DNA from: Ectothiorhodospiraceae bacterium
Lineage (GTDB): Bacteria; Pseudomonadota; Gammaproteobacteria; Nitrococcales; Aquisalimonadaceae
Length of the DNA: 37,224 bases
NCBI GenBank assembly: GCA_020831885.1
Contig: JAFIFU010000034.1
Span: 1 to 37,224, forward strand
Direction of reading: 5' to 3'
Part shown: one piece after another, positions 2,767 through 37,224 of the stretch
Layout of the letters: each line of letters begins with the position of its first letter
How positions within the stretch are numbered: the first letter of the stretch is position 1
Translations under genes and position numbers: made by a program
The notes under the pieces: generated by a model
Seen by the model: only the letters and a program-made list of their open reading frames with translations
Told to the model about the DNA's origin: nothing
The model's database searches: none

Positions 2767-3696
2767 ATGGTGAGAGAGAAGCGGAATCGGCGATCCGTGG
2801 ACGGTATTCTGCTGCTGGACAAGCCGGCGGGGATGACCTCCAACCGCGCACTGCAGAAGGTCAAGGCGGTTTACCGCGCGCGCAAGGCCGGGCATACCGG
2901 CAGCCTGGATCCCCTGGCCACCGGGCTGCTCCCTGTGTGTTTCGGAGAGGCCACCAAGATTTCGGGTTTTCTGCTGGATGCGGACAAGCAGTACCGGGTG
3001 CGCGTGCGCCTGGGTGAGACCACCGATACCGGTGACGCGGACGGGCAGGTGATCGAGACCCGGCCCGTTCCGTCGCTGGACCCGGCGCTCATTGAACAGT
3101 CCCTGGCCGCCCTGCGCGGAACCATACAGCAGGTCCCGCCCATGTATTCGGCGCTGAAGCACCAGGGCCAGCGGCTGTACAAACTGGCCCGGCAAGGACG
3201 GGAGGTGGAGCGCGCCCCGCGCCAGGTCACCGTTCACCGGCTGGAACTGCTGGAACGGACCGATCTCCACCTGGAGTTGCTGGTGGATTGCTCCAAGGGG
3301 ACGTATGTCCGCTCCCTGGTGGAGGATCTGGGCGCGTCCCTGGGTTGCGGGGCGCACGTGGCAGCCCTGCGCCGGACCGCCCTGGGGCCCTTTGCCGATC
3401 CACGGATGCATACCCTGGATGCCGTGCTTGCGCTGGCCGAAGACCTGTCCGGGCTGGATGCGCTGCTACTGCCGGTGGATGCGGGGCTGCTGCACTGGCC
3501 CGAGGTCCGGCTTGATGGCGATTCCGCCCACTACGTGCGCCAGGGACAGGCGGTGTTCGTACCGCGGGCGCCTGCCCGGGGCTGGGTCCGTCTGCGGGGA
3601 CCGGACGGATTCATGGGTATGGGGCAGATACTGGATGACGGACGCGTGGCCCCGAAACGGCTAATACAGTCGGATCCGGGTTGCGTGGGCGGGTAA
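2767..3696 (+). CDS. truB: tRNA pseudouridine(55) synthase
   Basis: TruB isomerises uridine 55 in the T-loop of almost all elongator tRNAs to pseudouridine and also acts as a tRNA chaperone. The ATG at 2767 gives 309 residues, close to E. coli TruB (314). The catalytic motif HTGSLDPLATG is at residues 43-53 with the nucleophile at Asp48. The KGTYVRSL segment of the catalytic fold is also present, and the C-terminal part resembles the small PUA-like TruB C-terminal domain. Longer in-frame extensions upstream overlap rbfA and lack TruB character, so they are rejected. It is the last gene before the separately promoted rpsO. Confidence 0.96.
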   Translation: MVREKRNRRSVDGILLLDKPAGMTSNRALQKVKAVYRARKAGHTGSLDPLATGLLPVCFGEATKISGFLLDADKQYRVRVRLGETTDTGDADGQVIETRPVPSLDPALIEQSLAALRGTIQQVPPMYSALKHQGQRLYKLARQGREVERAPRQVTVHRLELLERTDLHLELLVDCSKGTYVRSLVEDLGASLGCGAHVAALRRTALGPFADPRMHTLDAVLALAEDLSGLDALLLPVDAGLLHWPEVRLDGDSAHYVRQGQAVFVPRAPARGWVRLRGPDGFMGMGQILDDGRVAPKRLIQSDPGCVGG

Positions 3697-9500: not shown

Positions 9501-9968
9501 TCAGATTTCGATCTGCTGGCCGTGGATGTAGCGCATGAGGTCGGCGATGTCGTGATCCTTGTCGTCGAGCGCGAACCGCACCAGATCACCGATGGACAGC
9601 AGCCCCAGCAACTCTCTGCCATCGACCACGGGCAGATGCCGGATGCGCCGGTTCGTGCATTCGGCCAACGCCTCTTCCACGGTCAATGACGACTCCACGG
9701 TGAACACGTCCTTGGTCATGACATCGCCCACCGTAACCTCAGCCGGATTGATGCCTTTATCGGCGATGCGCCTCAACACGTCCCGCTCTGACAGGATGCC
9801 CGCCACCCGGGCGTTGTCGATCACCAGCACGCAGCCCACGTTCTGTTCACACATGGTGCGGATCGCCTCGGATGCGGGAATCTCCGGCCGGGTGGTGTAC
9901 AGCGCACCGCCCCGCTCGGCGAGCAGCAGGGCCTTTGCTCCGAGGACGACCTTTAGCGGCGTCTCCAT
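9501..9968 (-). CDS. Two-CBS-domain protein
   Basis: A 155-residue protein made of a CBS pair: the first at about residues 23-75 (CVLVIDNARVAGILSERDVLRRI) and the second at about 92-142 (MTKDVFTVESSLTVEEALAEC, then LPVVDGRELLGLLSIGDLV). CBS pairs usually bind adenosyl ligands (AMP, ATP, SAM) or NAD and regulate partner proteins. No catalytic or membrane domain is fused, so it is a stand-alone sensor of unknown partner. GGAGG eight bases before the ATG supports the start. It is divergent from nqrA across a 170-bp gap. Confidence 0.9.
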   Translation of the reverse strand: METPLKVVLGAKALLLAERGGALYTTRPEIPASEAIRTMCEQNVGCVLVIDNARVAGILSERDVLRRIADKGINPAEVTVGDVMTKDVFTVESSLTVEEALAECTNRRIRHLPVVDGRELLGLLSIGDLVRFALDDKDHDIADLMRYIHGQQIEI

Positions 9969-10138
9969 GACACGTCCCTCCGTGTCGATCAGCAGGTACT
10001 GACAAGGATAGCCCAGGTGTCAGGCAACGTCCGGACTGGTAAGGCCGGTCCCGTGAACCATACTTGTTCTTACCAATATCCAGAGGTTCGCGATTCCGGG
10101 CGGTTCATCAACCGGACCAGTTCGCCGGGAATAGCACC
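9969..10138. other. Divergent intergenic region between CBS gene and nqrA
   Basis: These 170 bases must contain the promoter of the nqr operon and probably that of the CBS gene. I see only weak candidates (for example CATACT at 10059-10064 as a -10) and no strong palindrome, so I do not call hexamers. Confidence 0.5.
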
Positions 10139-11482
10139 ATGATCAAAATCAGACAGGGACTGGACATACCCATTGCGGGTACGCCGGTTCAGGAGATAGA
10201 GCGGGGTTCGAGGGTGCGCTCTGTTGCTCTGCTGGGAGCCGACTACCCCGGAATGAAGCCGACCATGCATGTCCGAGAGGGCGATCGGGTCCGGCTGGGG
10301 CAGGTGCTGTTCGAGGACAAGAAAACGGAAGGCGTCCGCTACACCGCGCCCGGAGCAGGGCGTGTCAGTGCCATCCATCGTGGTGAACGCCGTACGCTGC
10401 TGTCAGTGGTGATCGATCTCGCCGGAGACGACGAAGAGACCTTTTCGGCACATCCCGCCGTGGCCCTGTCCCGGCTGTCCAGGGAGCGGGCGCAGGAGCA
10501 GTTGTTCGCTTCGGGCGAGTGGACGGCGATCCGGACCCGTCCGTTCGGCAAGGTCCCGGTCCCCGGCACCGTGCCGGAGGCCATCTTCGTCTCTCTCATG
10601 GATACCGCACCCCTGGCCGCCAACCCCGAGATCGTGGTCCGGGAGGCGCTGTCCGCATTCCAGGACGGACTGACCGTGCTGACCCGGTTGACCGATGGAC
10701 CGGTGTGGGTCTGCCGTGGCGCCGATTCCGTGCTGCCGTCCTTCGCAAACGATCGCATCCGCGAGGAGACGTTCGTCGGCCCGCACCCGGCCGGCAATCC
10801 GGGAACCCATATCCACTTTCTGCATCCCGTGGACATGCAGCGCACGGTCTGGGTGGTGGGTTACCAGGATGTGATCGCGTTCGGCAGGCTGTTCACCACC
10901 GGGCGGATCCACTACGAGCGGGTGGTGGCCCTGGCCGGGCCGCAGGTGCGCCGGCCGCGCTTGCTGCGCACCCGGTTGGGCGCCTCGGTGCAGGAGCTGA
11001 CGGCCGGCGAACTGGAGGCGGGGGATAACCGCATCGTGTCCGGGTCCGTCCTGCATGGTCACCACGCCCACGGCCCCGTGGCCTTTCTGAGCCGTCCGGC
11101 CACCCAGATCAGCGTGCTCCGGGAAGGTCGCGAACGGCAGTTGCTTGGCTATCTGTCCCCGGGCATCAACCGGCATTCGGTGATGAATATCTATCTTTCC
11201 CGCCTGATGCCGTGGAAGCGGTTCGGGCTGACCACCACAACCAACGGCAGCGAGCGCGCCATGGTCCCCCTGGGCCAGTATGAGGAGGTGATGCCGCTGG
11301 ACATTCTTCCCACCCAGTTGTTGCGGGCCCTGGTCGTGGGAGATACGGAAACGGCGCAGGCGCTGGGGGCGCTGGAACTGGTGGAAGAGGATCTGGCGCT
11401 GTGCACGTACGTCTGCACCGGGAAGTACGAGTACGGTCCGATTCTGCGGGATAACCTCACGCGCATTGAAGTGGAGGGTTGA
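10139..11482 (+). CDS. nqrA: Na+-translocating NADH:quinone reductase subunit A
   Basis: NqrA is the peripheral cytoplasmic subunit of Na+-NQR, which oxidises NADH, reduces ubiquinone and pumps sodium out. It has no membrane segment. The ATG at 10139 gives 447 residues beginning [16 protein letters not shown], the normal NqrA start; the frame is open further upstream but that extension is not NqrA-like. The RnfC-related C-terminal motif [16 protein letters not shown] is present near the end. It is the first gene of a tight operon: the stop (11480-11482) is one base before the nqrB GTG. Confidence 0.96.
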
Positions 11483-11483
11483 C

Positions 11484-12725
11484 GTGGGGTTGCGGAAGTT
11501 CATCGACGAGCGCATCGCACCGCACTTCCACGAGGGTGGAAAGCTGCAGCGGTATTACGTCTTCTACGAGATGTTCGATACCATGCTGTACAGTCCCGCC
11601 AGCACCACCCGCGCCGGGCCCCATGTGCGCGACGGCATCGACCTGAAACGGGTCATGATCACGGTCTGGTTCGCCGCATTGCCAGCCCTGCTGGTCGGCA
11701 TGTACAACGTCGGCTATCAGGCGAATCTCCAGATCACCGCGTTCGGCTACGATCCCATCCCCGGCTGGCGTACCGATCTGGTGGCCCTGTACACCGGCTT
11801 CGATCACACCAGCGCTGTCGCCAACGTCCTCCACGGCGCGGTGTACTACGTGCCCATTTTCGTCGTCACCTACCTGGCCGGCTTTCTCTGGGAGGGGCTG
11901 TTCGCCTGGAAGCGGGGACATGAGGTCAACGAGGGCTTTTTCGTCACCGGCATCCTGTTCACGCTGATCCTGCCGCCCACGATCCCGCTTTGGCAGGTGT
12001 TCCTCGGTATCAGCTTTGGTGTGGTGGTGGGCAAGGAGGTTTTCGGCGGCACCGGCAAGAACTTTCTCAACCCGGCCCTGGTGGGGCGGGCGTTCCTGTT
12101 CTTCGCCTACCCGGCGGAGATGACGGGGGATACGGTGTGGACGGCGGTGGACGGCTTTTCCGGGGCCACGCCTCTGGCCATGGCGGCAGCCGGGGAGCTG
12201 GATTACACCGCCGGCTTGACCGGAGTGGCCGGCACCTCCGCCGGGGTGGATCTGACCTGGATGCATACCGCCTTCGGTGGCATCCAGGGCTCGATTGGCG
12301 AGACCTCGGCCGTGGTCATCGCCTTGGGCGCCGCCATTCTGCTGATCACCAAGATCGCTTCCTGGCGGATCATGCTGGGGATGTTTCTGGGTATGTTCGT
12401 GCCGGCCGTACTGTTCAACCTGGTGGGCAGCGACACCAACCCCATGTTCGCCATGCCCTGGTACTGGCATCTGACCCTGGGTGGTTTCGCGTTCGGGCTG
12501 GTGTACATGGCCACCGATCCCGTCTCCGCCGCGATGACCAACACCGGCAAATGGATCTTCGGCGTACTTATCGGCGTGCTGGTGGTTCTGATACGCGTGA
12601 TCAATCCCGCGTTTCCGGAAGGCGTCATGCTGGCCATTCTGTTCGGCAATCTGTGTGCGCCGTTGATTGACCATTTCGTCGTCCAGGCCAATATCCGGCG
12701 CCGCATGCGGCGCAAGGAGGTCTAG
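11484..12725 (+). CDS. nqrB: Na+-translocating NADH:quinone reductase subunit B
   Basis: NqrB is the large integral-membrane subunit of the pump and carries covalent FMN and non-covalent riboflavin. The GTG at 11484 with GGAGGG ahead of it gives 413 residues beginning MGLRKFIDER, as in the family; an ATG at 11466 overlaps nqrA and is less likely. The FMN attachment motif SGAT is at residues 226-229 with Thr229 as the flavinylated residue. Multiple hydrophobic helices cover most of the protein. FMN attachment requires ApbE, which is not encoded beside it. Confidence 0.96.
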   Translation: MGLRKFIDERIAPHFHEGGKLQRYYVFYEMFDTMLYSPASTTRAGPHVRDGIDLKRVMITVWFAALPALLVGMYNVGYQANLQITAFGYDPIPGWRTDLVALYTGFDHTSAVANVLHGAVYYVPIFVVTYLAGFLWEGLFAWKRGHEVNEGFFVTGILFTLILPPTIPLWQVFLGISFGVVVGKEVFGGTGKNFLNPALVGRAFLFFAYPAEMTGDTVWTAVDGFSGATPLAMAAAGELDYTAGLTGVAGTSAGVDLTWMHTAFGGIQGSIGETSAVVIALGAAILLITKIASWRIMLGMFLGMFVPAVLFNLVGSDTNPMFAMPWYWHLTLGGFAFGLVYMATDPVSAAMTNTGKWIFGVLIGVLVVLIRVINPAFPEGVMLAILFGNLCAPLIDHFVVQANIRRRMRRKEV

Positions 12726-12728
12726 CCC

Positions 12729-13511
12729 ATGGCCGGAAACCGTGATTCCATCGCCAACACCATCCGGGTCTCCTTTCTGGTCTGCCTGGTGTGTGCCGTG
12801 GTGGTATCCACGGCCTCGGTGGGACTGCGCGAGGCGCAGCACGAGAACCAGATGCAGTATCGCCAGATCAATATCCTCCGGGCGGCCGGCCTGTATGAGC
12901 CCGGCATGGACCTCCGGGAGGCGTTTGAGCGTATTGAGCGCCGTTTCGTGGAATTCGGCACCGGCCGTTACGTGGACATGCCCACCGACTATGATCCGAT
13001 GCGGGCCGCCCGGGATCCGGCCAGGAGCCGGGCAGTGACCCCGGATCCGGCCGGCATCCGCCGGCAGCCCCATGTGGGCGAGGTGTACCTGGCCTGGAGT
13101 GAGGCGGGAGAGCTGGAGCGCATCATCCTGCCGGTTCACGGCTACGGCCTGTGGTCCACCATGTACGGATTCCTGGCCTTGGAGCCGGATGCCAACACCG
13201 TGGCCGGTATCGGTTTCTTCGAGCACGGGGAGACCCCGGGCCTGGGCGGCGAAATCGACAATCCGCGCTGGCAGGCCGTCTGGGAGGGCAAACGGCTGCT
13301 GGACGACGACGGGGCCGTGGCAATCCGCGTGATCAAGGGGGCCGTGCCGGACGGCGCCACCAACCGGGAGCACCTGATCGATGGCCTGAGTGGCGCCACG
13401 ATCACCACGGAGGGCGTGAACAGACTGGTGCGCTTCTGGGTAGGCGATCAGGGCTATGGTCCCTACCTGGAACGTCTTCGTGATCCATACCGGGGCAACG
13501 ATACAACCTGA
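12729..13511 (+). CDS. nqrC: Na+-translocating NADH:quinone reductase subunit C
   Basis: NqrC is a 260-residue subunit with one N-terminal membrane helix (about residues 12-32) and a large extracytoplasmic FMN-binding domain. The second covalent FMN site is SGAT at 221-224 with Thr224 as the attachment residue, within [14 protein letters not shown]. The ribosome binding site overlaps the nqrB stop (AAGGAGGTCTAG), giving tight coupling. It passes electrons between the NqrD/NqrE iron-sulfur centre and NqrB. Confidence 0.96.
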
Positions 13512-13546
13512 GGCGGGGGCGGTACTCCGGTCCCCGAGGAGGCGAT

Positions 13547-14215
13547 ATGGCGGCAGCGAAAGCAACAGAGGTGCTGTTCCAGCCCATCTTCAACAACAAC
13601 CCCATCGCCCTGCAGATTCTGGGCATCTGCTCGGCGCTGGCCATCACCACGACGCTGCAGACCACCATCACCATGTGTCTGGCGGTCATATTCGTGCTTA
13701 CCTGCTCGAACTTCTTCGTCAGCCTGATTCGCACCCATATCCCCACCAATGTCCGCATCATCGTGCAGATGACGATTATCACCTCGCTGGTGATCCTGGT
13801 GGACCAGGTGCTGCAGGCCTATGCCTACGAGATCAGCCGTCAACTGTCCGTGTTCGTGGGGTTGATCATCACCAACTGCATCATTCTCGGCCGCGCCGAG
13901 GCCTTTGCCATGAACAATTCCCCGGGGATGGCGGCAGCCGACGGCTTCGGTAACGCCTTGGGCTACTCGGTGGTCCTGTTGTTTGTGGGGGCGTCGCGGG
14001 AGCTGCTCGGTTCCGGCACGCTGGCCGGTGCGGAAATCCTGCACCCTGTCGCCGAGGGTGGCTGGTATGCCCCCAACGGCCTCATGCTGTTGCCGCCGGC
14101 GGCCTTCTTCCTGATCGGTGCCTTTATCTGGTTGTTGCGTGCCTGGAAACCGGACCAGGTGGAGGAGCCCCAGTTCAGGATCGCGCCGAACTCCCGGTCA
14201 GTGGAGGCGTTCTGA
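13547..14215 (+). CDS. nqrD: Na+-translocating NADH:quinone reductase subunit D
   Basis: NqrD is a membrane subunit with six predicted helices, homologous to NqrE and packed against it in inverted topology. It has 222 residues. Cys28 (in GICSALAI) and the Cys in the [13 protein letters not shown] motif are the conserved residues that, with the pair in NqrE, hold the intramembrane iron-sulfur centre. GAGGAGG precedes the ATG. The stop is one base before the nqrE start. Confidence 0.96.
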
Positions 14216-14216
14216 C

Positions 14217-14837
14217 GTGTTCGAGCATTACTTGAGCCTGTTCATCCGCGCCGTGTTCGTGGAGAACATGGCGCTGGCCTTTTTCCTCGGCATGTGCACC
14301 TTCCTGGCCATTTCCAAGAAGGTGCAGACCGCCCTGGGCCTGGGTGTTGCCGTGGTGGTGGTGCTGACCATCACCGTGCCGGTGAACAACCTGATTCTGC
14401 ATCATCTGCTGGACGAGGGGGCGCTGGCCTGGACCGGGATTCCCGCCCTGCAGTCATTGGATATGCGCTTCCTGGGTCTGCTCTGCTACATCGGCGTGAT
14501 CGCCGCCATTGTGCAGATCCTGGAGATGACCCTGGATCGGTACGTGCCGGCCCTGTACAACGCCCTTGGCATCTTCCTGCCGTTGATCACCGTCAACTGC
14601 GCCATTCTCGGCGCCAGCCTGTTCATGGTGGAACGGCACTACAGCCTGGGCGAGAGCGTGGTGTTCGGTTTCGGTGCCGGTGTGGGCTGGGCCCTGGCCA
14701 TTGTCCTGTTGGCAGCGATCCGGGAGAAGCTGAAGTACAGCGATGTGCCCGCCGGGCTCCAGGGGCTGGGTATCACCTTCATTATCGTGGGGCTGATGTC
14801 CCTGGGGTTCATGTCCTTTGCCGGAGTGCAGCTCTGA
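14217..14837 (+). CDS. nqrE: Na+-translocating NADH:quinone reductase subunit E
   Basis: NqrE is the partner of NqrD, with 206 residues and six hydrophobic helices. The GTG at 14217, preceded by GGAGG at 14203-14207, gives the family start [20 protein letters not shown]; further upstream codons lie in nqrD. Cys27 (LGMCTFLA) and the Cys in [11 protein letters not shown] are the iron-centre ligands. The GTG start and one-base gap suggest translational coupling to nqrD. Confidence 0.96.
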
Positions 14838-14883
14838 TTGCACGCGGGAGACGCGTGTCCGCGCACACTGGCTGGGAGGTGTC

Positions 14884-16110
14884 ATGTTCTTCGAGATCCT
14901 GTTCGGTGTGGGCACCTTTACCGCCGTGGTCCTGTCCCTGGTGCTGATTATCCTCGTGGCCCGTACCCGCCTGGTGACCACCGGTCGGGTACGCATCGAT
15001 ATCAATGATGATCCGGACAAGGCCGTGGTGACGGAGGGGGGCGGCAAGCTGTTGGGTACCCTGGCCGCCAATGGGATCTACCTGTCTTCCGCCTGCGGTG
15101 GCGGTGGTACCTGCGGCCAGTGCCGCTGCCGGGTTCTGGAGGGGGGTGGTGATATCCTGCCCACCGAGCAGGAGCATTTCACCCGCAAGGAGATCCGCGA
15201 AGGTTTCCGGCTGTCCTGCCAGGTGGCGGTGAAGCGGGACCTCCAGATCATCGTGCCGCCGGAGTTTTTCGAGGTGCGCAAATGGCAGTGCGAGGTCATG
15301 TCCAATGACAACGTGGCCACCTTCATCAAAGAGCTGGTGGTGAAGCTGCCGGAAGGGGAGGATGTCGCTTTCCGCGCTGGCGGTTTCGTGCAGTTGGAGG
15401 CGCCGCCGTTCCATGTGAAGTTCCGCGACTTCGACATTCCCCCGGACTACCGGGAGGACTGGGATAGCCTCCGGCTGTTCGACCTTGAGTGCCGCAGCGA
15501 CGAGACCGTGATCCGGGCTTATTCCATGGCCAACTATCCCGAGGAGCGCGGCATCCTGAAGTTCAATGTCCGTATCGCGACACCGCCGCCTGATACCGGG
15601 GTGCCGCCGGGCAAGGTGTCCTCCTATGTGTTCGGCCTCAAGCCGGGGGACCGGTGCACGGTATTCGGACCATTTGGTGAGTTCTTTGCCAAGGACACCG
15701 ACGCCGAGATGATCTTTATCGGCGGTGGTGCTGGCATGGCACCCATGCGCTCCCATATCTTCGATCAGTTGCTCCGCCTTAAAAGCCGGCGAAAGATCAG
15801 TTTCTGGTACGGCGCCCGGTCCTATCGCGAAGCCTTCTACGTGGAGGAGTTCGACAAACTCGCGGCGGAGCACGACAACTTCACCTGGTATCTGGCCTTG
15901 TCCGATCCGTTACCGGAAGACAACTGGACCGGACTCACGGGCTTTATTCACCAGGTCCTCTACGACAATTACCTGAAGGACCATCCGGCGCCGGAGGACT
16001 GCGAGTATTACATCTGCGGCCCCCCGGTGATGCTGGCGGTCTGCCAGCAGATGCTCCGGGATCTGGGCGTGGAACCCGAGAACGTCCTCTATGACGATTT
16101 CGGCGGCTGA
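14884..16110 (+). CDS. nqrF: Na+-translocating NADH:quinone reductase subunit F
   Basis: NqrF takes hydride from NADH and passes electrons through FAD to a [2Fe-2S] cluster. It has 408 residues. An N-terminal membrane helix (about 5-26) is followed by a ferredoxin domain with cluster ligands Cys71, Cys77, Cys80 and Cys112, the FAD motif RAYSMANY, and the NADH-binding [12 protein letters not shown]. The C-terminal CGPPVM and terminal DDFGG match the family. GGGAGG lies before the ATG at 14884. It is the last structural subunit of the pump. Confidence 0.97.
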
Positions 16111-16556: not shown

Positions 16557-17243
16557 TCAGTCCGCGGACGCCTCATCATCCTCCGGGTAGAAGTCCAGAT
16601 CCTCCAGTTGACCCATCACGGCGGTGGCGATGTTGGCCAGGTGGGCCGCCACGCGCTTGTAATGTCTGGCCAACAGCGAATAGGCCACGGCTTCGTGGAA
16701 TGCGATCTGATCCTCGTCCCGGAACAGTTCCTCGATCAGCCGGTCGCAATGGCGCCGGATCTGGCCGGCGGAATCCAGCGCCTTGCGGGCGAGGCGCTCA
16801 TCCGAGTCCCTTGTGGCGGCAATGACCAGTTCAAACATCCGGGTCATCTGCTCGGCCGTCCGGTCCAGCGGCTCATGGTATTTCGGAACGTGGAAACCTT
16901 CGGTGTAGAACGCTCCCACTTCAAACACGTTCTTGCAGTAATCGCCGATACGCTCGGCGTCCTTCGCCACACTCATCAGCGCCAGGCAGATGGCAACGTC
17001 GTGGCCGGGGTTGACCGTGAGATATCGCAGTACCTTGCGGCGAATGGAGCGTTCCAGGTCGTTGATGGCCTGATCGCGGTCGTACAGTGGCTGCCGCACC
17101 TGGTCGGCGGGAACCGTGCTGTGCAGGACCTCGTTGGCCCGGTCGAACATCCATGCGCCGTGCTCCAGCATCCGGGTCAGATCCTCGAACGCCTGGTTGA
17201 TCGTGTTCTCCGAGGTCAGGGCGCTGTAGATCTGTCGAAACAT
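16557..17243 (-). CDS. PhoU-domain protein
   Basis: A 228-residue all-helical protein with two PhoU-like repeats; each carries a heptad-rich helix bundle (for example ALMSVAKDAERIGDYCKNVFE, and the second-half SLLARHYKRVAAHLANIA). PhoU proteins bind metal clusters and modulate phosphate uptake. Because it follows a Na+/phosphate cotransporter-like gene by 55 bases, it is more likely a partner of that protein than the classical PhoU of a pst operon, which is not in the window. The ATG at 17243 has GGAGG six bases ahead; a longer frame to 17264 runs into the ribosome binding site. Confidence 0.88.
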   Translation of the reverse strand: MFRQIYSALTSENTINQAFEDLTRMLEHGAWMFDRANEVLHSTVPADQVRQPLYDRDQAINDLERSIRRKVLRYLTVNPGHDVAICLALMSVAKDAERIGDYCKNVFEVGAFYTEGFHVPKYHEPLDRTAEQMTRMFELVIAATRDSDERLARKALDSAGQIRRHCDRLIEELFRDEDQIAFHEAVAYSLLARHYKRVAAHLANIATAVMGQLEDLDFYPEDDEASAD

Positions 17244-17298: not shown

Positions 17299-18510
17299 TC
17301 AGCGCAGGGTGCCGATCAGCTCGGTGAGTCCGATTCCGATCAACGGTATCACTAAGAATACGCCAAACAGGAAGGCGAAGGCGTAACGGGTCTGTCGGCC
17401 GGCCAGCCCCCCATACCAGGTAGCAATTTTCAGCGGTATGCGGCGGAGCGGATACCAGATGGCTGTACCCGTCAGATTAAAGATGACGTGGAACAGCGCC
17501 ACGGTCATGGCGGCGGCGATGGGGTTGGCCGTCGCGGCCAGTACGCTGGTCACCGTGGTGCCCAGATTGGCACCCATCATGAACGGGAGCACCCGGCGGA
17601 TGCGGACCACGCCGGCGCCCGCCAGAGGCACCATCAGGCTGCTTGTGATGGTGCTGGATTGCACCAGAACCGTGGAGATCACGCCCACGCCATAGGCGCG
17701 CAGATCATTGCGGAAGAAGTAGGTGCGGAACAGGCCGTCCAGATGGCGCAGCAGCGCTCCACGCAGGTTCTGCACCATGAAGATCAGGGCGATGAACATC
17801 AGTAGCAGGCCGATGGCTGCCACCAGTAATCCCTCGCCGGTGGCGCCGGGCATGAGCCAGGCGCCGAGCGCATCAATGCCTTTGACCACCGGCGCGGTCA
17901 CCACCTTCACGGGGCTGTCCGGTCGCGCCACTTCCTCCAGGCCGATCAGATCGCTGCACCAGGCCGCCAGGCGTGTCAGCAGGCCGCGGCCGGATTCATG
18001 GAGCAGACCGCTGATCCATTCCAGCGGAAAGATCAGCGCCACCGTCAGGATGTTGAAGAAATCGTGGAGGAGAGCGGCGGTGAAGGAGCGGCGGAAGTTG
18101 CGTCGAATGCGGATGTTCGCCAGAGCGACGATGACGCCGGTGACGGCCGTGCCGATGTTCGCCCCCATGATGGCGAAGACCGCGGTGCCCAGTGTCATCT
18201 CGCCGCTGGCCACCAGGGTGACGATCAGCGCCGAGGTGAAGGAGGAACTCTGCACGGTCATGGTGACCAGGACACCGCCTAACAGCGCGATGAACGGGTT
18301 TTCCCCGTACGCGAACACCTGGGCAAGGAAGTCGCTGCTGCGGCCGAAGGTGCCGAGTCCCGAGCCCAGGACGTTCAGCGCCGCCAGGAACAGGTACAGA
18401 CACAGGCCTGCGTAAACGCCCCGAAGCCAGGCCGGGACTTCCCTTGGTCGACGCCGGCTCAGGGCCGGTGGTTGCGTATCACGTGCGGATGAAGAATCGG
18501 CTCTGGACAT
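17299..18510 (-). CDS. Na+/phosphate cotransporter family protein (NptA/PNaS type)
   Basis: A 403-residue polytopic membrane protein of the sodium-dependent phosphate symporter family. The family's duplicated signature is present as QSSS at residues 87-90 (TVQSSSFTSALIV) and QSST at 284-287 (LVQSSTITSSLMVPL). Each is followed by a GANIGT or GANLGT motif (IMGANIGTAVTG and MMGANLGTTVTS). These repeats form the two-fold transport core. A short charged N-terminus precedes the first helix. The Shine-Dalgarno GGAG is close to the ATG, so the exact start is not certain. Downstream is a PhoU-like gene, a common pairing; PhoB-like boxes upstream suggest control by phosphate starvation. Confidence 0.9.
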   Translation of the reverse strand: MSRADSSSARDTQPPALSRRRPREVPAWLRGVYAGLCLYLFLAALNVLGSGLGTFGRSSDFLAQVFAYGENPFIALLGGVLVTMTVQSSSFTSALIVTLVASGEMTLGTAVFAIMGANIGTAVTGVIVALANIRIRRNFRRSFTAALLHDFFNILTVALIFPLEWISGLLHESGRGLLTRLAAWCSDLIGLEEVARPDSPVKVVTAPVVKGIDALGAWLMPGATGEGLLVAAIGLLLMFIALIFMVQNLRGALLRHLDGLFRTYFFRNDLRAYGVGVISTVLVQSSTITSSLMVPLAGAGVVRIRRVLPFMMGANLGTTVTSVLAATANPIAAAMTVALFHVIFNLTGTAIWYPLRRIPLKIATWYGGLAGRQTRYAFAFLFGVFLVIPLIGIGLTELIGTLR

Positions 18511-18547
18511 GGGCTCCGATTTCCAATGCGCTGGTTCTCAGGCCGGA

Positions 18548-18565
18548 TTGTCACCCGGCTGTCAT
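18548..18565 (+). promoter_or_regulatory. Second PhoB-box-like direct repeat (plus orientation)
   Basis: TTGTCAC (18548-18554), a 4-base spacer, and CTGTCAT (18559-18565) give a second 7+4+7 repeat. It faces the other way and lies between the first box and the gene start. No plus-strand gene follows, so it may be an additional PhoB binding site for the same promoter. Confidence 0.45.
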
Positions 18566-18597
18566 AGTCGCCTGTGCGCGCACGGTACCGATCAATT

Positions 18598-18615
18598 GTG
18601 ACAAAGACGTGACAG
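18598..18615 (-). promoter_or_regulatory. PhoB-box-like direct repeat (minus orientation)
   Basis: On the minus strand CTGTCAC-GTCT-TTGTCAC reproduces the Pho-box layout: two 7-base repeats close to CTGTCAT separated by 4 bases. It lies 88 nt upstream of the Na+/phosphate cotransporter-like start and points toward it. A weak -10 candidate, TACCGT (18587-18582), sits 10 nt beyond. The spacer is less AT-rich than the E. coli consensus. Confidence 0.55.
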
Positions 18616-18679
18616 CGGCATGCAGGACGCCATTTCCCGATTCGCCGGTCACCGCCGGGTGCATCCTGAAACGGTCGAG

Positions 18680-18706
18680 AAAACGGGGACGTACTGCGTC
18701 CCCGTT
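18680..18706 (-). terminator. Intrinsic terminator after the ETF-QO gene
   Basis: AACGGGGACG (18682-18691) and CGTCCCCGTT (18697-18706) form a perfect 10-bp stem with a 5-nt loop. On the minus strand it is followed by TTC after the stem's TT, making a short U-run. It lies 28 bases past the ETF-QO stop. Confidence 0.75.
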
Positions 18707-18733
18707 GAAAGCCTGGTCGAACCGTCGTGTGGC

Positions 18734-20404
18734 CTACATGTTCGGGTAGTTGGGACCGCCGCCCCCTTCCGGCGTCACCCAGTTGATGTTCTGGGTGGGA
18801 TCCTTGATATCGCAGGTCTTGCAGTGAACGCAGTTCTGCGCGTTGATCTGGAAGCGCTTGGAGCCGTCGTCATTCTCCACCACTTCATAGACCCCCGCCG
18901 GGCAGTAGCGCTGTGCCGGTTCGGCCCACTTGGGCAGGTTGGTCTGGATGGGTATGTCCGGATCCTTGAGTTGCAGGTGACAGGGCTGGTCTTCCTCGTG
19001 ATTGGTATTGGAGATGAACACCGAATCCAGTCGGTTGAAAGTCAGCTTTCCATCCGGTTTCGGATAGTTGATGGGTTTGCACTCCGATGCCGGCTTCAGC
19101 GTGTCGTGGTCCGGCTTGGGATCCCGCAGCGTGAACGGCATGCGGCCGCCCAGCCAGTTGATGTCCACCACGGCCAGGCCGGAACCGACGAAGTTGCCGA
19201 ATTTGTGCTGGTACGGGCCGAAGTTGCGCTGCTTGTGCAACTCCTCGTGGATCCAGCTTCCTTCGAAGGCGGCCTTGTATTCGCTCAGCTCATCGTTGGC
19301 CCGGCCGGCCTTGATGGCCTCGGCAAGCACTTCCGCGGCGATCATGCCGGATTTCATGGCGGTGTGACTGCCCTTGATCTTGGCGAAGTTCAGCGTTCCC
19401 GCATCGCACCCCACCAATAAGCCGCCCGGGAAGTGCATTTTCGGCAGGGACTGCAGCCCACCCTTGGAAATGGCCCGGGCGCCATAGGAAATTCGCTTGC
19501 CGCCTTCCAGGTACTTGCGCACCGCCGGATGGGTTTTCCAGCGCTGCATTTCCTCGAAGGGGCTGACGTAGGGGTTCTCGTAGCAGAGATCCGTGATCAG
19601 TCCCAGCGCCACCTGATTGTTGTCCAGGTGGTACAGGAAGCCGCCGCCCAGGGAGCGGGATTCGGTGAGCGGCCAGCCAGCGCTATGCATCACCAGGCCT
19701 TCCCGGTGTTTCTCCGGGTCGATCTCCCACAGCTCCTTGACGCCCAGCCCGTAATGCTGCGGGTCCACGCCCTCGCGGAGCTGGTACTTCTCCATCAGCT
19801 GCTTGCCCAGATGACCTCGGCAGCCTTCGGAGAAGACGGTGTACTTGGCGCGCAGTTCCATGCCCGGCTCATGGTTGGGTTTGGGCTTGCCGTCCGCGCC
19901 GATGCCCACATCGCCGGTGGCGATGCCGCAGACGGCGCCGTCGTCATCGAACAACACCTCGGCGGCGGCGAACCCGGGAAAGACTTCCACGCCCAGGGCT
20001 TCCGCCTGTTCCGCAAGCCAGCGGCAGACATTGCCCAGGGAGACGATGTAGTTGCCCTCGTTGTGCATGGTCTTGGGCACGAACATGCCCGGCACCCGGC
20101 TTGCCTTCTCCGGGCCGCGCATATACAGGATTTCGTCCTCTTTTACGGGAACATTCAGTGGTGCTCCACGATCTTTCCAGTCCGGGAACAGCTCGTTCAG
20201 CGCCCGGGGCTCCAGGACTGCCCCGGAGAGAATATGGGCGCCAACCTCGGAGCCCTTCTCGACGACGACGATGCTGAGTTCCTGGCCGGTTTCCTGGGCG
20301 ATCTGGCCCAGCCGGCAGGCGGTGGCCAGCCCGGACGGTCCGGCGCCGACGATCACCACGTCGAACTCCATGCTTTCGCGTTCCACGGCCTCGTGGTTAT
20401 CCAT
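18734..20404 (-). CDS. Electron transfer flavoprotein-ubiquinone oxidoreductase
   Basis: ETF-QO takes electrons from reduced ETF, loaded by acyl-CoA dehydrogenases, and reduces ubiquinone at the inner membrane. It has 556 residues, the family's length. The FAD-binding GAGPSG is at residues 20-25. The C-terminal ferredoxin-like domain carries the four [4Fe-4S] ligands Cys501, Cys525, Cys528 and Cys531 in YCPAGVYE and CVHCKTCDIKDPTQNINW. GGGAGG five bases before the ATG fixes the start. It lies downstream of glutaryl-CoA dehydrogenase on the same strand, which fits its job. The ETF subunits themselves are not in the window. Confidence 0.97.
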   Translation of the reverse strand: MDNHEAVERESMEFDVVIVGAGPSGLATACRLGQIAQETGQELSIVVVEKGSEVGAHILSGAVLEPRALNELFPDWKDRGAPLNVPVKEDEILYMRGPEKASRVPGMFVPKTMHNEGNYIVSLGNVCRWLAEQAEALGVEVFPGFAAAEVLFDDDGAVCGIATGDVGIGADGKPKPNHEPGMELRAKYTVFSEGCRGHLGKQLMEKYQLREGVDPQHYGLGVKELWEIDPEKHREGLVMHSAGWPLTESRSLGGGFLYHLDNNQVALGLITDLCYENPYVSPFEEMQRWKTHPAVRKYLEGGKRISYGARAISKGGLQSLPKMHFPGGLLVGCDAGTLNFAKIKGSHTAMKSGMIAAEVLAEAIKAGRANDELSEYKAAFEGSWIHEELHKQRNFGPYQHKFGNFVGSGLAVVDINWLGGRMPFTLRDPKPDHDTLKPASECKPINYPKPDGKLTFNRLDSVFISNTNHEEDQPCHLQLKDPDIPIQTNLPKWAEPAQRYCPAGVYEVVENDDGSKRFQINAQNCVHCKTCDIKDPTQNINWVTPEGGGGPNYPNM

Positions 20405-35156: not shown

Positions 35157-36317
35157 TTACCGGAACACCGGGTTCATACCGGCTGCATCCAGTGCCGCGG
35201 CGCGGGCTTCCATCCAGCCTGCGATGAACGCGTCTTCATCGGAGGGCGGGTTGGATCCGGTGTACTCCGCCCAGGTCTCCTGCAGGATTTCCTGGCGGCG
35301 CACCAGCATGTCCTGGTGCTCCTGCATTTCGTCGGTCCAGACGCCGATTTCCTTGTAGTACTCCACCACCGCATCGTGGAAGGGGACCACCCACTTCATG
35401 TTCTGGTTATCCAGTGAGTAGCCATCGTTCCCCGGAGCGGCATCCTTGTAGCTGTCGAACTCCTCCACGAAGAAGCGGATCAGCGGCCTGACCTTATCGT
35501 TGTCCAGGTCGGCATTCGTCACCATGATCGGATACGGGTAGCTGGAGCCTTGCCAGGGGTTGTCGGCGTCGACGTCGCCGGCAGCTGCGGTCACATTGTG
35601 TGGCTGGAAGTAGGGCGCCACCGACTGCAGGCGATCCCAGGCCTCGGAGTCGTCCGGATCAAGCCGCGGCCACGTCAGACCGCGTGGGCTCGCGGCCAGC
35701 TGCTGCGCCGGGGGCGCCACCGTCGCGGTGAAGGCAGCATCCGCCTGCCCGGCGATAACACCCTCGAACGATCGGGTGTAGCCCGGAAAGGTGACCCGTT
35801 CCACGTCATCCCAGGTGAGCCCGGCGAACGCCAGGTAGGATTCCGCGCCCACGTTCAGCGCATCGTCCCCGCGAACAAAGGCAACCCGCTTGCCCTTCAG
35901 GTCAGCCGGGGTTTCCACGCCGATATCACCCGCCACCGCCAGGCCCAGCCCGAACCTGGCGATCGAGGTGGTGATCACGCGGATCTGCTGCGGGCCCCAA
36001 TCCGGGCCGGCAAACATGAGAACGCCTTCGGAGCCGAAGTAGGCCGCTATGCCGCAGGCGCAGTAATCCACTCGCTGGTTTTTCAGTGGAGTCATACGGC
36101 TGATGTCGTTATCGCCCGGCAGAATGCGAACCGACGTGCCCTTGCCCTGCAGCACGTTGCCGATGGCGGCCATCTGCGTGTAACCCAAGGAGCCCGTGGG
36201 GTATGCCGTCATGGAAAGCGTGCGTGGCAGTTCCGCCTCGGCGCTGGCCGCGCCCGCCGCGAGTAGAGCGGACAGACCGACTGCGGTTGCCACTGACTGA
36301 ATCATCGTTTTCATCAT
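35157..36317 (-). CDS. TAXI-family TRAP transporter solute-binding protein
   Basis: The periplasmic receptor of a TRAP transporter of the TAXI type. The 386-residue precursor has a clear signal peptide (MMKTMIQSVATAVGLSALLAAGAASA, cut before EAE). The TAXI fold begins with LSMTAYPTGSLGYTQMAAIGNVL, and LKGKRVAFVRGDDALNVGAESYLAFAGLTWDDV is the second-domain signature. TAXI receptors are known for glutamate and other acids; the ligand here is unknown. GGAGGAG just before the tandem ATGs fixes the start at 36317, against a longer frame from 36425. It lies 73 bases after the permease gene, so the two are cotranscribed. Confidence 0.9.
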   Translation of the reverse strand: MMKTMIQSVATAVGLSALLAAGAASAEAELPRTLSMTAYPTGSLGYTQMAAIGNVLQGKGTSVRILPGDNDISRMTPLKNQRVDYCACGIAAYFGSEGVLMFAGPDWGPQQIRVITTSIARFGLGLAVAGDIGVETPADLKGKRVAFVRGDDALNVGAESYLAFAGLTWDDVERVTFPGYTRSFEGVIAGQADAAFTATVAPPAQQLAASPRGLTWPRLDPDDSEAWDRLQSVAPYFQPHNVTAAAGDVDADNPWQGSSYPYPIMVTNADLDNDKVRPLIRFFVEEFDSYKDAAPGNDGYSLDNQNMKWVVPFHDAVVEYYKEIGVWTDEMQEHQDMLVRRQEILQETWAEYTGSNPPSDEDAFIAGWMEARAAALDAAGMNPVFR

Positions 36318-36390
36318 CGTCTCCTCCAAAAGGCCCTTCATTTTATCTACAGCGAACACACCAAGCCGGCGACCGTTATCGCTCACCGGG

Positions 36391-37224
36391 TCATGCTTGG
36401 TTCTGTGCCGTCCTTGACGCGACATTGCGATTGATCCACCAGGAGAGAACCACTGCGGGAACCCCCAGAAGCAGACCGACCACGCTAAGCTCCATGTTGC
36501 TCAGTGGAACCGGGTCACCGCCGGGGATGGCCACTGTCAGACCGGCGATAACCAGCATGGCGCGGATCGGCCATTGCAGGATAATGTTGTTGCACAGGTT
36601 GCCCACCACCAGCAGATAGCCCTGCAAGGCCGAGGCAATCAGCCAGACTCCGAATACCGCCTGGGCGAACACCACGACGCTCTCTTGCCAGGCTCCCTGG
36701 AGAATGAGCGCCGGGTTCAACACGAACAGGAACGGAATGAAGTAAATGATGCTGCCCAGGCGCATGGCCTGCAGGCCGGTCTCCATGGGCCGGGCACCAG
36801 CCACGGTGGCCGCGGCGAAGGCACCCAGAGCCACCGGCGGTGTGATGAAGCTGAGCATCCCCCAGTACAGAATGAACAGATGCACAGCCATGGGGTTCAT
36901 GCCCGCCCCCTGGACCAGCGCCGGTGCCAGGGCCACTGCCAGGAAGATATAAGCGGCGGTCACGGTCATGCCTATGCCCAGGATGAAGCTGGTCATCGCG
37001 CCCATGAGCAACAGCACCAGCGTGTTGCCGCCGGCCAGCCAGATCAGGTCGTTGGCGATGGTGCCGGAGAGCCCCGTCATGGACAGCGCCCCAACGAGCA
37101 GCCCCACGCCGGCGAGAATGGCAATCAGCTCCGCGAACAGCTTGGCCGAACTGTTGAAGAAATCCAGCACCTCGCTCCAGCCCCAGCGCTGGTAGGGCAG
37201 CACCTGGTTGATCACCAGCAGCAG
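36391..37224 (-). CDS. TRAP transporter permease, fused type (5' end missing)
   Basis: The frame is open to the right edge of the window, so only the C-terminal 277 residues are visible. They contain about six hydrophobic helices and conserved DctM-type segments: GTIANDLIWLAGGNTLVLLLMGAMTSFILGIGMTVTAAYIFLA, and FILYWGMLSFITPPVALGAFAAA. Permeases paired with TAXI receptors are usually fusions of the small DctQ-like and large DctM-like subunits. The visible part is the end of the DctM-like half; I infer the fusion. It uses the sodium gradient to import organic acids. Confidence 0.88.
   Translation of the reverse strand: MLLVINQVLPYQRWGWSEVLDFFNSSAKLFAELIAILAGVGLLVGALSMTGLSGTIANDLIWLAGGNTLVLLLMGAMTSFILGIGMTVTAAYIFLAVALAPALVQGAGMNPMAVHLFILYWGMLSFITPPVALGAFAAATVAGARPMETGLQAMRLGSIIYFIPFLFVLNPALILQGAWQESVVVFAQAVFGVWLIASALQGYLLVVGNLCNNIILQWPIRAMLVIAGLTVAIPGGDPVPLSNMELSVVGLLLGVPAVVLSWWINRNVASRTAQNQA

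Follow-up and report, generated by a model that had tools for sequence, protein, structure and literature searches.

Two PhoB-box-like sites of different predicted roles upstream of a Na+/phosphate symporter and phoU gene pair in an Ectothiorhodospiraceae bacterium

Introduction

Proteobacterial secondary phosphate importers are for the most part regarded either as lying outside the Pho response or as being repressed by it. In promoters of the Escherichia coli phoA type an 18-bp PhoB box of 7+4+7 layout is followed after 10 bp by a -10 hexamer, and phoA itself is a single-box promoter. A structural model has PhoB arranged head to tail on direct repeats, making contacts of fixed geometry with sigma and alpha (PMC3348028), and strict spacing for PhoB activation is also stated in PMC10294691, according to which PhoB activates or represses depending on the position of its site. 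An earlier proposal of E. coli pitB as a PhoB target finds no support in the same paper.

For NptA-type symporters, the idea of control by a Pho system has a precedent in Staphylococcus aureus, where nptA depends on PhoPR and is induced by phosphate limitation (PMC13170248). PhoB of Halomonas sp. HAL1 binds a Pho box on the antisense strand, located 3-21 bp before aioB, and phoB or phoR mutants fail to induce aioBA (PMC4563254). A precedent for repression is Sinorhizobium meliloti orfA-pit, which is repressed on starvation and has a Pho box just before its start codon (PMC3131613).

The locus described here lies in a window of 37,224 nucleotides (the whole stretch of DNA analysed, positions 1 to 37,224 of contig JAFIFU010000034.1 in assembly GCA_020831885.1). 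Like the S. aureus system it combines an NptA-type Na+/Pi importer with PhoU function, although S. aureus NptA carries PhoU as a C-terminal domain and is regulated by PhoP (PMC13170248), whereas the window has a separate phoU-like gene and PhoB-type boxes. With HAL1 aioBA, the case in which Halomonas PhoB binding has been seen, it shares an antisense-strand Pho box near the start codon; aioBA differs in its single reported box, its arsenite oxidase operon and its net activation (PMC4563254). S. meliloti orfA-pit likewise encodes a phosphate transporter with a Pho box close upstream of the start codon, but this is a starvation-repressed member of the Pit family, and the passage on it in PMC3131613 mentions no upstream activating box. 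Compared with a phoA-type promoter, the predicted npt promoter has a weaker -10 (TACCGT), beyond which lies another strong PhoB box. Judged by its sequence, the outer half reads as an ordinary Pho promoter, and the unusual part is the conserved, locally inverted inner PhoB box.

Results and Discussion

The npt and phoU genes

17299..18510, minus strand: npt, predicted NptA/SLC34-type Na+/Pi symporter of 403 aa; PF02690 in two stretches (1.2e-32), with VQSSS and VQSST motifs
16557..17243, minus strand: phoU-like gene, separate from npt; PF01895 in two stretches (1.9e-20), ATG at 17243-17241, GGAGG upstream

A first-pass annotation had placed two PhoB-box-like sites in front of a Na+/phosphate cotransporter-PhoU pair, and the PF02690 and PF01895 matches agree with this identification of the genes. 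The npt product passes the cut-off of NCBIfam model NF037997 (87.8 bits, cut-off 50), stays under those of TIGR01013 (139.4 of 306.15) and TIGR00704 (74.2 of 210.1), and matches solved SLC34A2 chains at 9.8e-47; we assign it as a predicted NptA/SLC34-type Na+/Pi symporter, and take its VQSSS and VQSST motifs to be significant for that family. The phoU-like product scores 78.8 of the 130.25 bits needed for the TIGR02135 equivalog, the Pst-linked PhoU, and is a PhoU-domain protein that is not a TIGR02135 equivalog. A PhoU relative, searched with a query without its first Met, is found in the flank of 58/58 proteobacterial npt loci and of 18 of the 22 other loci.

Two strong PhoB boxes at the npt promoter

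18598..18615, minus strand: distal PhoB box CTGTCAC-GTCT-TTGTCAC, facing npt, in the activator position; score 18.7
18582..18587, minus strand: TACCGT, predicted -10 element, separated from the distal box by 10 bp
18575, minus strand: transcription start as predicted from the -10 element, which lies about 7 bp upstream
18548..18565, plus strand: proximal (inner) PhoB box TTGTCAC-CCGG-CTGTCAT, pointing away from npt and covering about +11 to +28 of the predicted leader; score 21.0

The window was scored with a matrix of PhoB half-sites taken from ten E. coli K-12 boxes, which were chosen by likeness to a consensus and themselves score 15.0-24.2; because the matrix background is the G+C-rich composition of the window, A+T-rich stretches are favoured. 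Among all window positions on both strands the sites at 18548-18565 (21.0) and 18598-18615 (18.7) rank first and second, with the third at 11.75, and an exact single-base background gives 0.3 and 1.9 expected sites at these two scores per genome, or 0.003 and 0.017 per window. The sites that had been described at 18548-18615, with a 7+4+7 layout and opposite orientation, are thus exact to the base, and the position-matrix check suggested with them sets both clearly apart from the next-best site. The proximal box scores 21.0 in the reverse and 3.1 in the forward sense, so its opposite orientation is genuine. The starts of the two boxes are 50 bp apart, and the inner and distal boxes lie 38-55 bp and 88-105 bp, respectively, upstream of the npt ATG (18510, minus strand).

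When the whole 4.13-Mb genome was searched for perfect TGTCA-N6-TGTCA sites, there were five, and the npt promoter boxes are two of them. None of the remaining three is plainly at a phosphate gene, with genes named by eye from their translations:

L119, contig C19: perfect TGTCA-N6-TGTCA site at flagellar-hook-like genes
L120, contig C87: perfect TGTCA-N6-TGTCA site in a formate-dehydrogenase-like locus
L121, positions 3003-3020 (G000, contig C107): perfect TGTCA-N6-TGTCA site, score 18.4, between enoyl-CoA-hydratase-like and ribonucleotide-reductase-like genes

Sites with one mismatch number 89, against 61 for a reversed-pattern control, a mild excess which means that such sites carry little meaning by themselves.

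The genome encodes its own PhoB (TIGR02154, 358.9 bits, above the cut-off of 296.2), which shares 66% identity with its E. coli counterpart and hardly differs from it across a 22-residue stretch, presumably where the recognition helix lies. Around phoB there is a pst-phoU-phoBR-like cluster (L118) with a PhoR-like ORF adjoining phoB, all but PhoB being named by eye. Matrix scoring in this genome covered selected places, among which the npt promoter pair are the two strongest boxes; weaker sites lie upstream of pstC (15.2), phoB (14.9), a porin-like gene (14.8), a ppk-like gene (14.8) and pstS (13.0). When a box is asked to have a -10 at the fixed distance, ppk and pstC pass, neither having a leader box beyond the -10, and pstS, phoB and the porin-like gene do not.

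The region upstream of the ppk-like gene (L122, about 3167-3235; G000, contig C69) contains a forward PhoB-like box followed after 10 bp by TAGACT, and a second PhoB-like site (14.8) that overlaps this hexamer. It is a possible second dual-box promoter in this genome, and a milder form of the two-box layout may therefore exist elsewhere.

The distal box and Pho control among npt orthologues

Orthologues were collected from a scan of named genomes (77 loci from the best 80 of 184 matches) and from additional searches within the genus (3/3 genomes, E 1e-3), the family (9/14, E 1e-60) and the order (17/54, E 1e-100). The resulting 59 proteobacterial upstream regions include the window and L050, which carries an alphaproteobacterial name (Rhodovibrio), and exclude the duplicate loci L129-L131 and L061, which is too short. 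A PhoB site scoring at least 14 is present in 43 of the 59, compared with 1/21 other orthologues, 2/457 coding pieces and 9/590 shuffles; at a threshold of at least 12 the corresponding numbers are 47/59, 3/21, 4/457 and 14/590. Conservation upstream of orthologues, a further check that had been suggested, is therefore well above the coding background. The other proteobacterial upstreams fall below 14 (16/59) or below 12 (12/59), and no site of at least 11 is seen upstream of npt in Marinimicrobium (L032), Wenzhouxiangella (L042), Natronospira (L043) and Ectothiorhodospira haloalkaliphila (L038), among others. All four named are haloalkaliphile relatives, so Pho control of npt is not universal.

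The position of the -10 element points to the role of the distal box. Forward sites of at least 12 occur in 45 upstreams, and in 24 of these the motif TANNNT lies exactly 10 bp after the best forward site, and every other spacing from 4 to 25 bp accounts for at most 1/45. The same 10-bp spacing occurs in E. coli phoA and pstS; the other 5/7 E. coli K-12 Pho promoters do not pass a strict test of box, 10 bp and TANNNT, so that the test is sufficient rather than necessary. This fixed spacing marks the distal box as an activator box, as at E. coli phoA, and predicts a transcription start near 18575.

In a related lineage (L161, L163-L166, L045, L046 and L055) the npt boxes end in TTGACTGTCAT or TTGACTGTCAC, with GGCAGC or GGCAGT at 10 bp in place of TANNNT, which suggests a different core promoter layout.

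Matrix score, orthologue conservation and the fixed -10 spacing all support the proposed membership of the symporter-PhoU pair in the Pho regulon, and npt-phoU is very probably a Pho-activated operon. A predicted sodium-driven phosphate importer is thereby added, by sequence evidence, to the Pho regulon of haloalkaliphilic proteobacteria. Among the open-access papers listed, by title and opening of the abstract, none dealt with PhoB control of npt in these groups.

A second box at fixed positions in the leader

For analysis of the leader, the 20/59 upstreams without a distal box plus TANNNT were dropped, leaving 39 promoters, and L160 was added to make 40 for counts at fixed positions. A second site of at least 9 lies somewhere in the leader of 36/39 promoters, as against 44/1950 shuffled leaders. 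Leader half-sites occupy slots at 39-41, 50-52 and 61-63, and a second site of at least 9 starting at offsets 39-41 or 50-52 is found in 35/40 promoters versus 6/2000 shuffles; with a threshold of at least 13 the counts are 18/40 and 0/2000. By this stricter count, in which the inner sites of L017 and L026 fall below 9 at the slots, the 39 promoters contribute 34 (35/40 with L160). The shuffles preserve single-base composition only, and many Halomonas rows are close kin, the 40 promoters falling into 14 clusters at a rough 75% identity.

The inner box could be a neutral relic or a chance match, with the distal box alone mattering. It is absent in L005 (same genus, G002) and in L128 and L036 (same family), all of which keep the distal box, and is thus dispensable. 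Moreover, the leader of E. coli phoA gives a match of 13.6 at offset 38, in an A+T-rich stretch, and the leader test is consequently not free of false matches. Given the 35/40 slot count against 6/2000 shuffles, and the 21.0 and 24.2 scored by the two reversed boxes described below, we consider this explanation improbable, and the inner box is likely to be a functional PhoB site.

It was also considered whether Pho promoters of these species carry a leader box as a rule. Comparison of 20 pstS loci from 16 genomes yielded six promoters with a box and a -10 (from the genomes of L013, L014, L041, L058, L059 and L063), and none of these six has a site at the slots, one having a leader site of 9.06 at offset 80, outside them. 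This idea was rejected; the npt promoters of the same six genomes are all two-box.

The orientation of the inner box varies among lineages. Its half-sites are mostly forward in Halomonadaceae, Natronospirillum and G034, a genome of the same taxonomic order as the window, whereas the window and L004 (a sister species of the same genus, G001) have strong reversed half-sites at slots 50 and 61, the pairs scoring 21.0 and 24.2. The L004 box starts 50 bp after the start of the distal box, as in the window, and these two are the only strongly reversed inner boxes among the 40 promoters. Weak reverse matches occur in L013, L015, L016, L017 and L026 (9.9-11.6, offset 44), in which the slots mostly hold forward half-sites, some of them weak, and the flipped count is accordingly restricted to the window and L004.

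On a rapidly built tree of npt, which has unresolved forks and long branches and excludes the short fragment L064, all 36 two-box rows fall within one clade of 39 (support 88), next to L005 and L128; the other three rows of this clade (L019, L038 and L051) were scored as having none. Support is 84 for the group that the window and L004 form with L160 (forward) and L038 (none), L160 being their nearest two-box row. The simplest history, including its direction, would be a single gain of a forward leader box followed by inversion in the lineage of the window. Between the window and L004 the proximal half-sites are conserved at 12/14 positions and the rest of the leader at 30/52 (p=0.066), a difference that is suggestive only.

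The inner box might instead drive a second, downstream promoter, and TAACCT does lie 10 bp after the forward inner box in L008-L011. A TANNNT at this distance after the best forward leader site is present only in those 4/39 promoters, which are close relatives, and in the window the inner box faces away from npt, the plus-strand hexamer 10 bp on being GCGCGC; a second promoter is therefore very improbable. A divergent promoter from the plus-strand box at 18548-18565 was likewise rejected, there being no -10 at 10 bp.

The repeats might also act as RNA structure in the leader and not as PhoB sites. Compared with shuffles, the predicted leader has a somewhat better fold (z -1.9, with 7/200 as good), and several Halomonas leaders contain TGACA-N6-TGTCA, which could pair; set against this, 18300-18800 has no Rfam match up to E 0.1, and the repeats of the window and L160 are direct, not palindromic. 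We find an RNA role hardly credible.

Possible action of the inner box

From their positions the two npt boxes do not appear equivalent, the distal one being in the activator position and the proximal one downstream of the predicted -10, and we regard a PhoB-dependent npt-phoU promoter with two boxes of different roles as reasonably likely. Under phosphate limitation, PhoB~P would bind the distal box at 18598-18615, which would stand in for a -35 element 10 bp upstream of TACCGT and, as at E. coli phoA, recruit RNA polymerase. Another PhoB dimer would occupy the leader box at 18548-18565, about +11 to +28, and hinder promoter escape or early elongation, limiting symporter synthesis when PhoB~P is abundant.

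The argument for a limiting role is that the inner box holds its place yet is reversed in the lineage of the window, from which we infer that it probably does not recruit polymerase and may act sterically, independent of polarity. PhoB contacts need a set geometry, so a box downstream of the start and flipped in place is unlikely to use them. Limitation has in its favour the starvation-repressed S. meliloti orfA-pit (PMC3131613) and the dependence of PhoB action on site position stated in PMC10294691. Against it, intragenic PhoB sites of E. coli showed no evidence of acting as roadblocks (PMC10294691), and the inner box outscores the outer one in the window, which would make strong limitation costly under starvation. 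A limiting net effect of the inner box could well be real, but we judge it slightly doubtful.

A different reading is that the inner box also activates or cooperates, stabilising PhoB at the promoter or bending the DNA so that output is raised with no repression. The Pho box of HAL1 aioBA, which scores 16.1 on the E. coli K-12 matrix, is reversed, start-proximal and PhoB-bound, and its operon is PhoBR-dependent (PMC4563254); a reversed start-proximal box thus need not repress. In Rhizobium rosR, PHO boxes 2 and/or 3, near the translation start, are reported to have a small positive effect with E. coli PhoB. The set PhoB-polymerase geometry (PMC3348028, PMC10294691) ill fits a flipped box downstream of the start, and we consider an activating inner box rather unlikely.

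Returning to a limiting inner box, the fullest version would have one regulator both start and cap npt-phoU, the distal box activating and the leader box obstructing to give a pulse or a ceiling of expression, with a single gain of the cap box in the npt clade to which Halomonas, Natronospirillum and their relatives belong, and a later in-place inversion in the lineage of the window. We offer this combined scenario tentatively and doubt more of it than we accept. Were it true, the in-place inversion would be a natural experiment indicating action independent of polarity. A conserved, naturally flipped PhoB site offers a means to test whether PhoB acts both ways at one promoter.

The neighbouring Na+-NQR operon and other npt genes

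10064..16110, plus strand: nqrABCDEF operon, NCBIfam equivalogs over cut-off; convergent with phoU and outside the Pho unit

The first-pass annotation had linked sodium-driven phosphate uptake under Pho control to a sodium-pumping NADH dehydrogenase in the same organism. The nqrA-F genes are indeed present, but a functional link to the Na+-NQR is not supported: no PhoB site lies in its promoter region (9501-10200), where the best match scores 4.8, and a tblastn match to nqrF (E 1e-20) occurs in the flank of 1/83 npt loci, that of L004, with flanks of up to 3 kb and often shorter. Among the flanks examined, NQR adjoins npt in the window and L004 only. Inclusion of NQR in the Pho unit was rejected on these two grounds; the connection is one of neighbourhood only, and the case for sodium-driven uptake in the Pho regulon rests on npt alone.

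The genome contains a second npt paralogue (G000, contig C16, about 35962-36720; L002, L003) in a 581-aa open frame, which is perhaps of the NptA-PhoU fusion type, a guess from length alone; the flanking DNA examined has no PhoB site of at least 11. Genes 50-64% identical to the npt of the window are also present in Planctomycetota MAGs (Phycisphaerales/Phycisphaeraceae; L052, L054, L056, L057, L060 and L061), and all six adjoin a PhoU relative, suggesting old exchange or descent across phyla.
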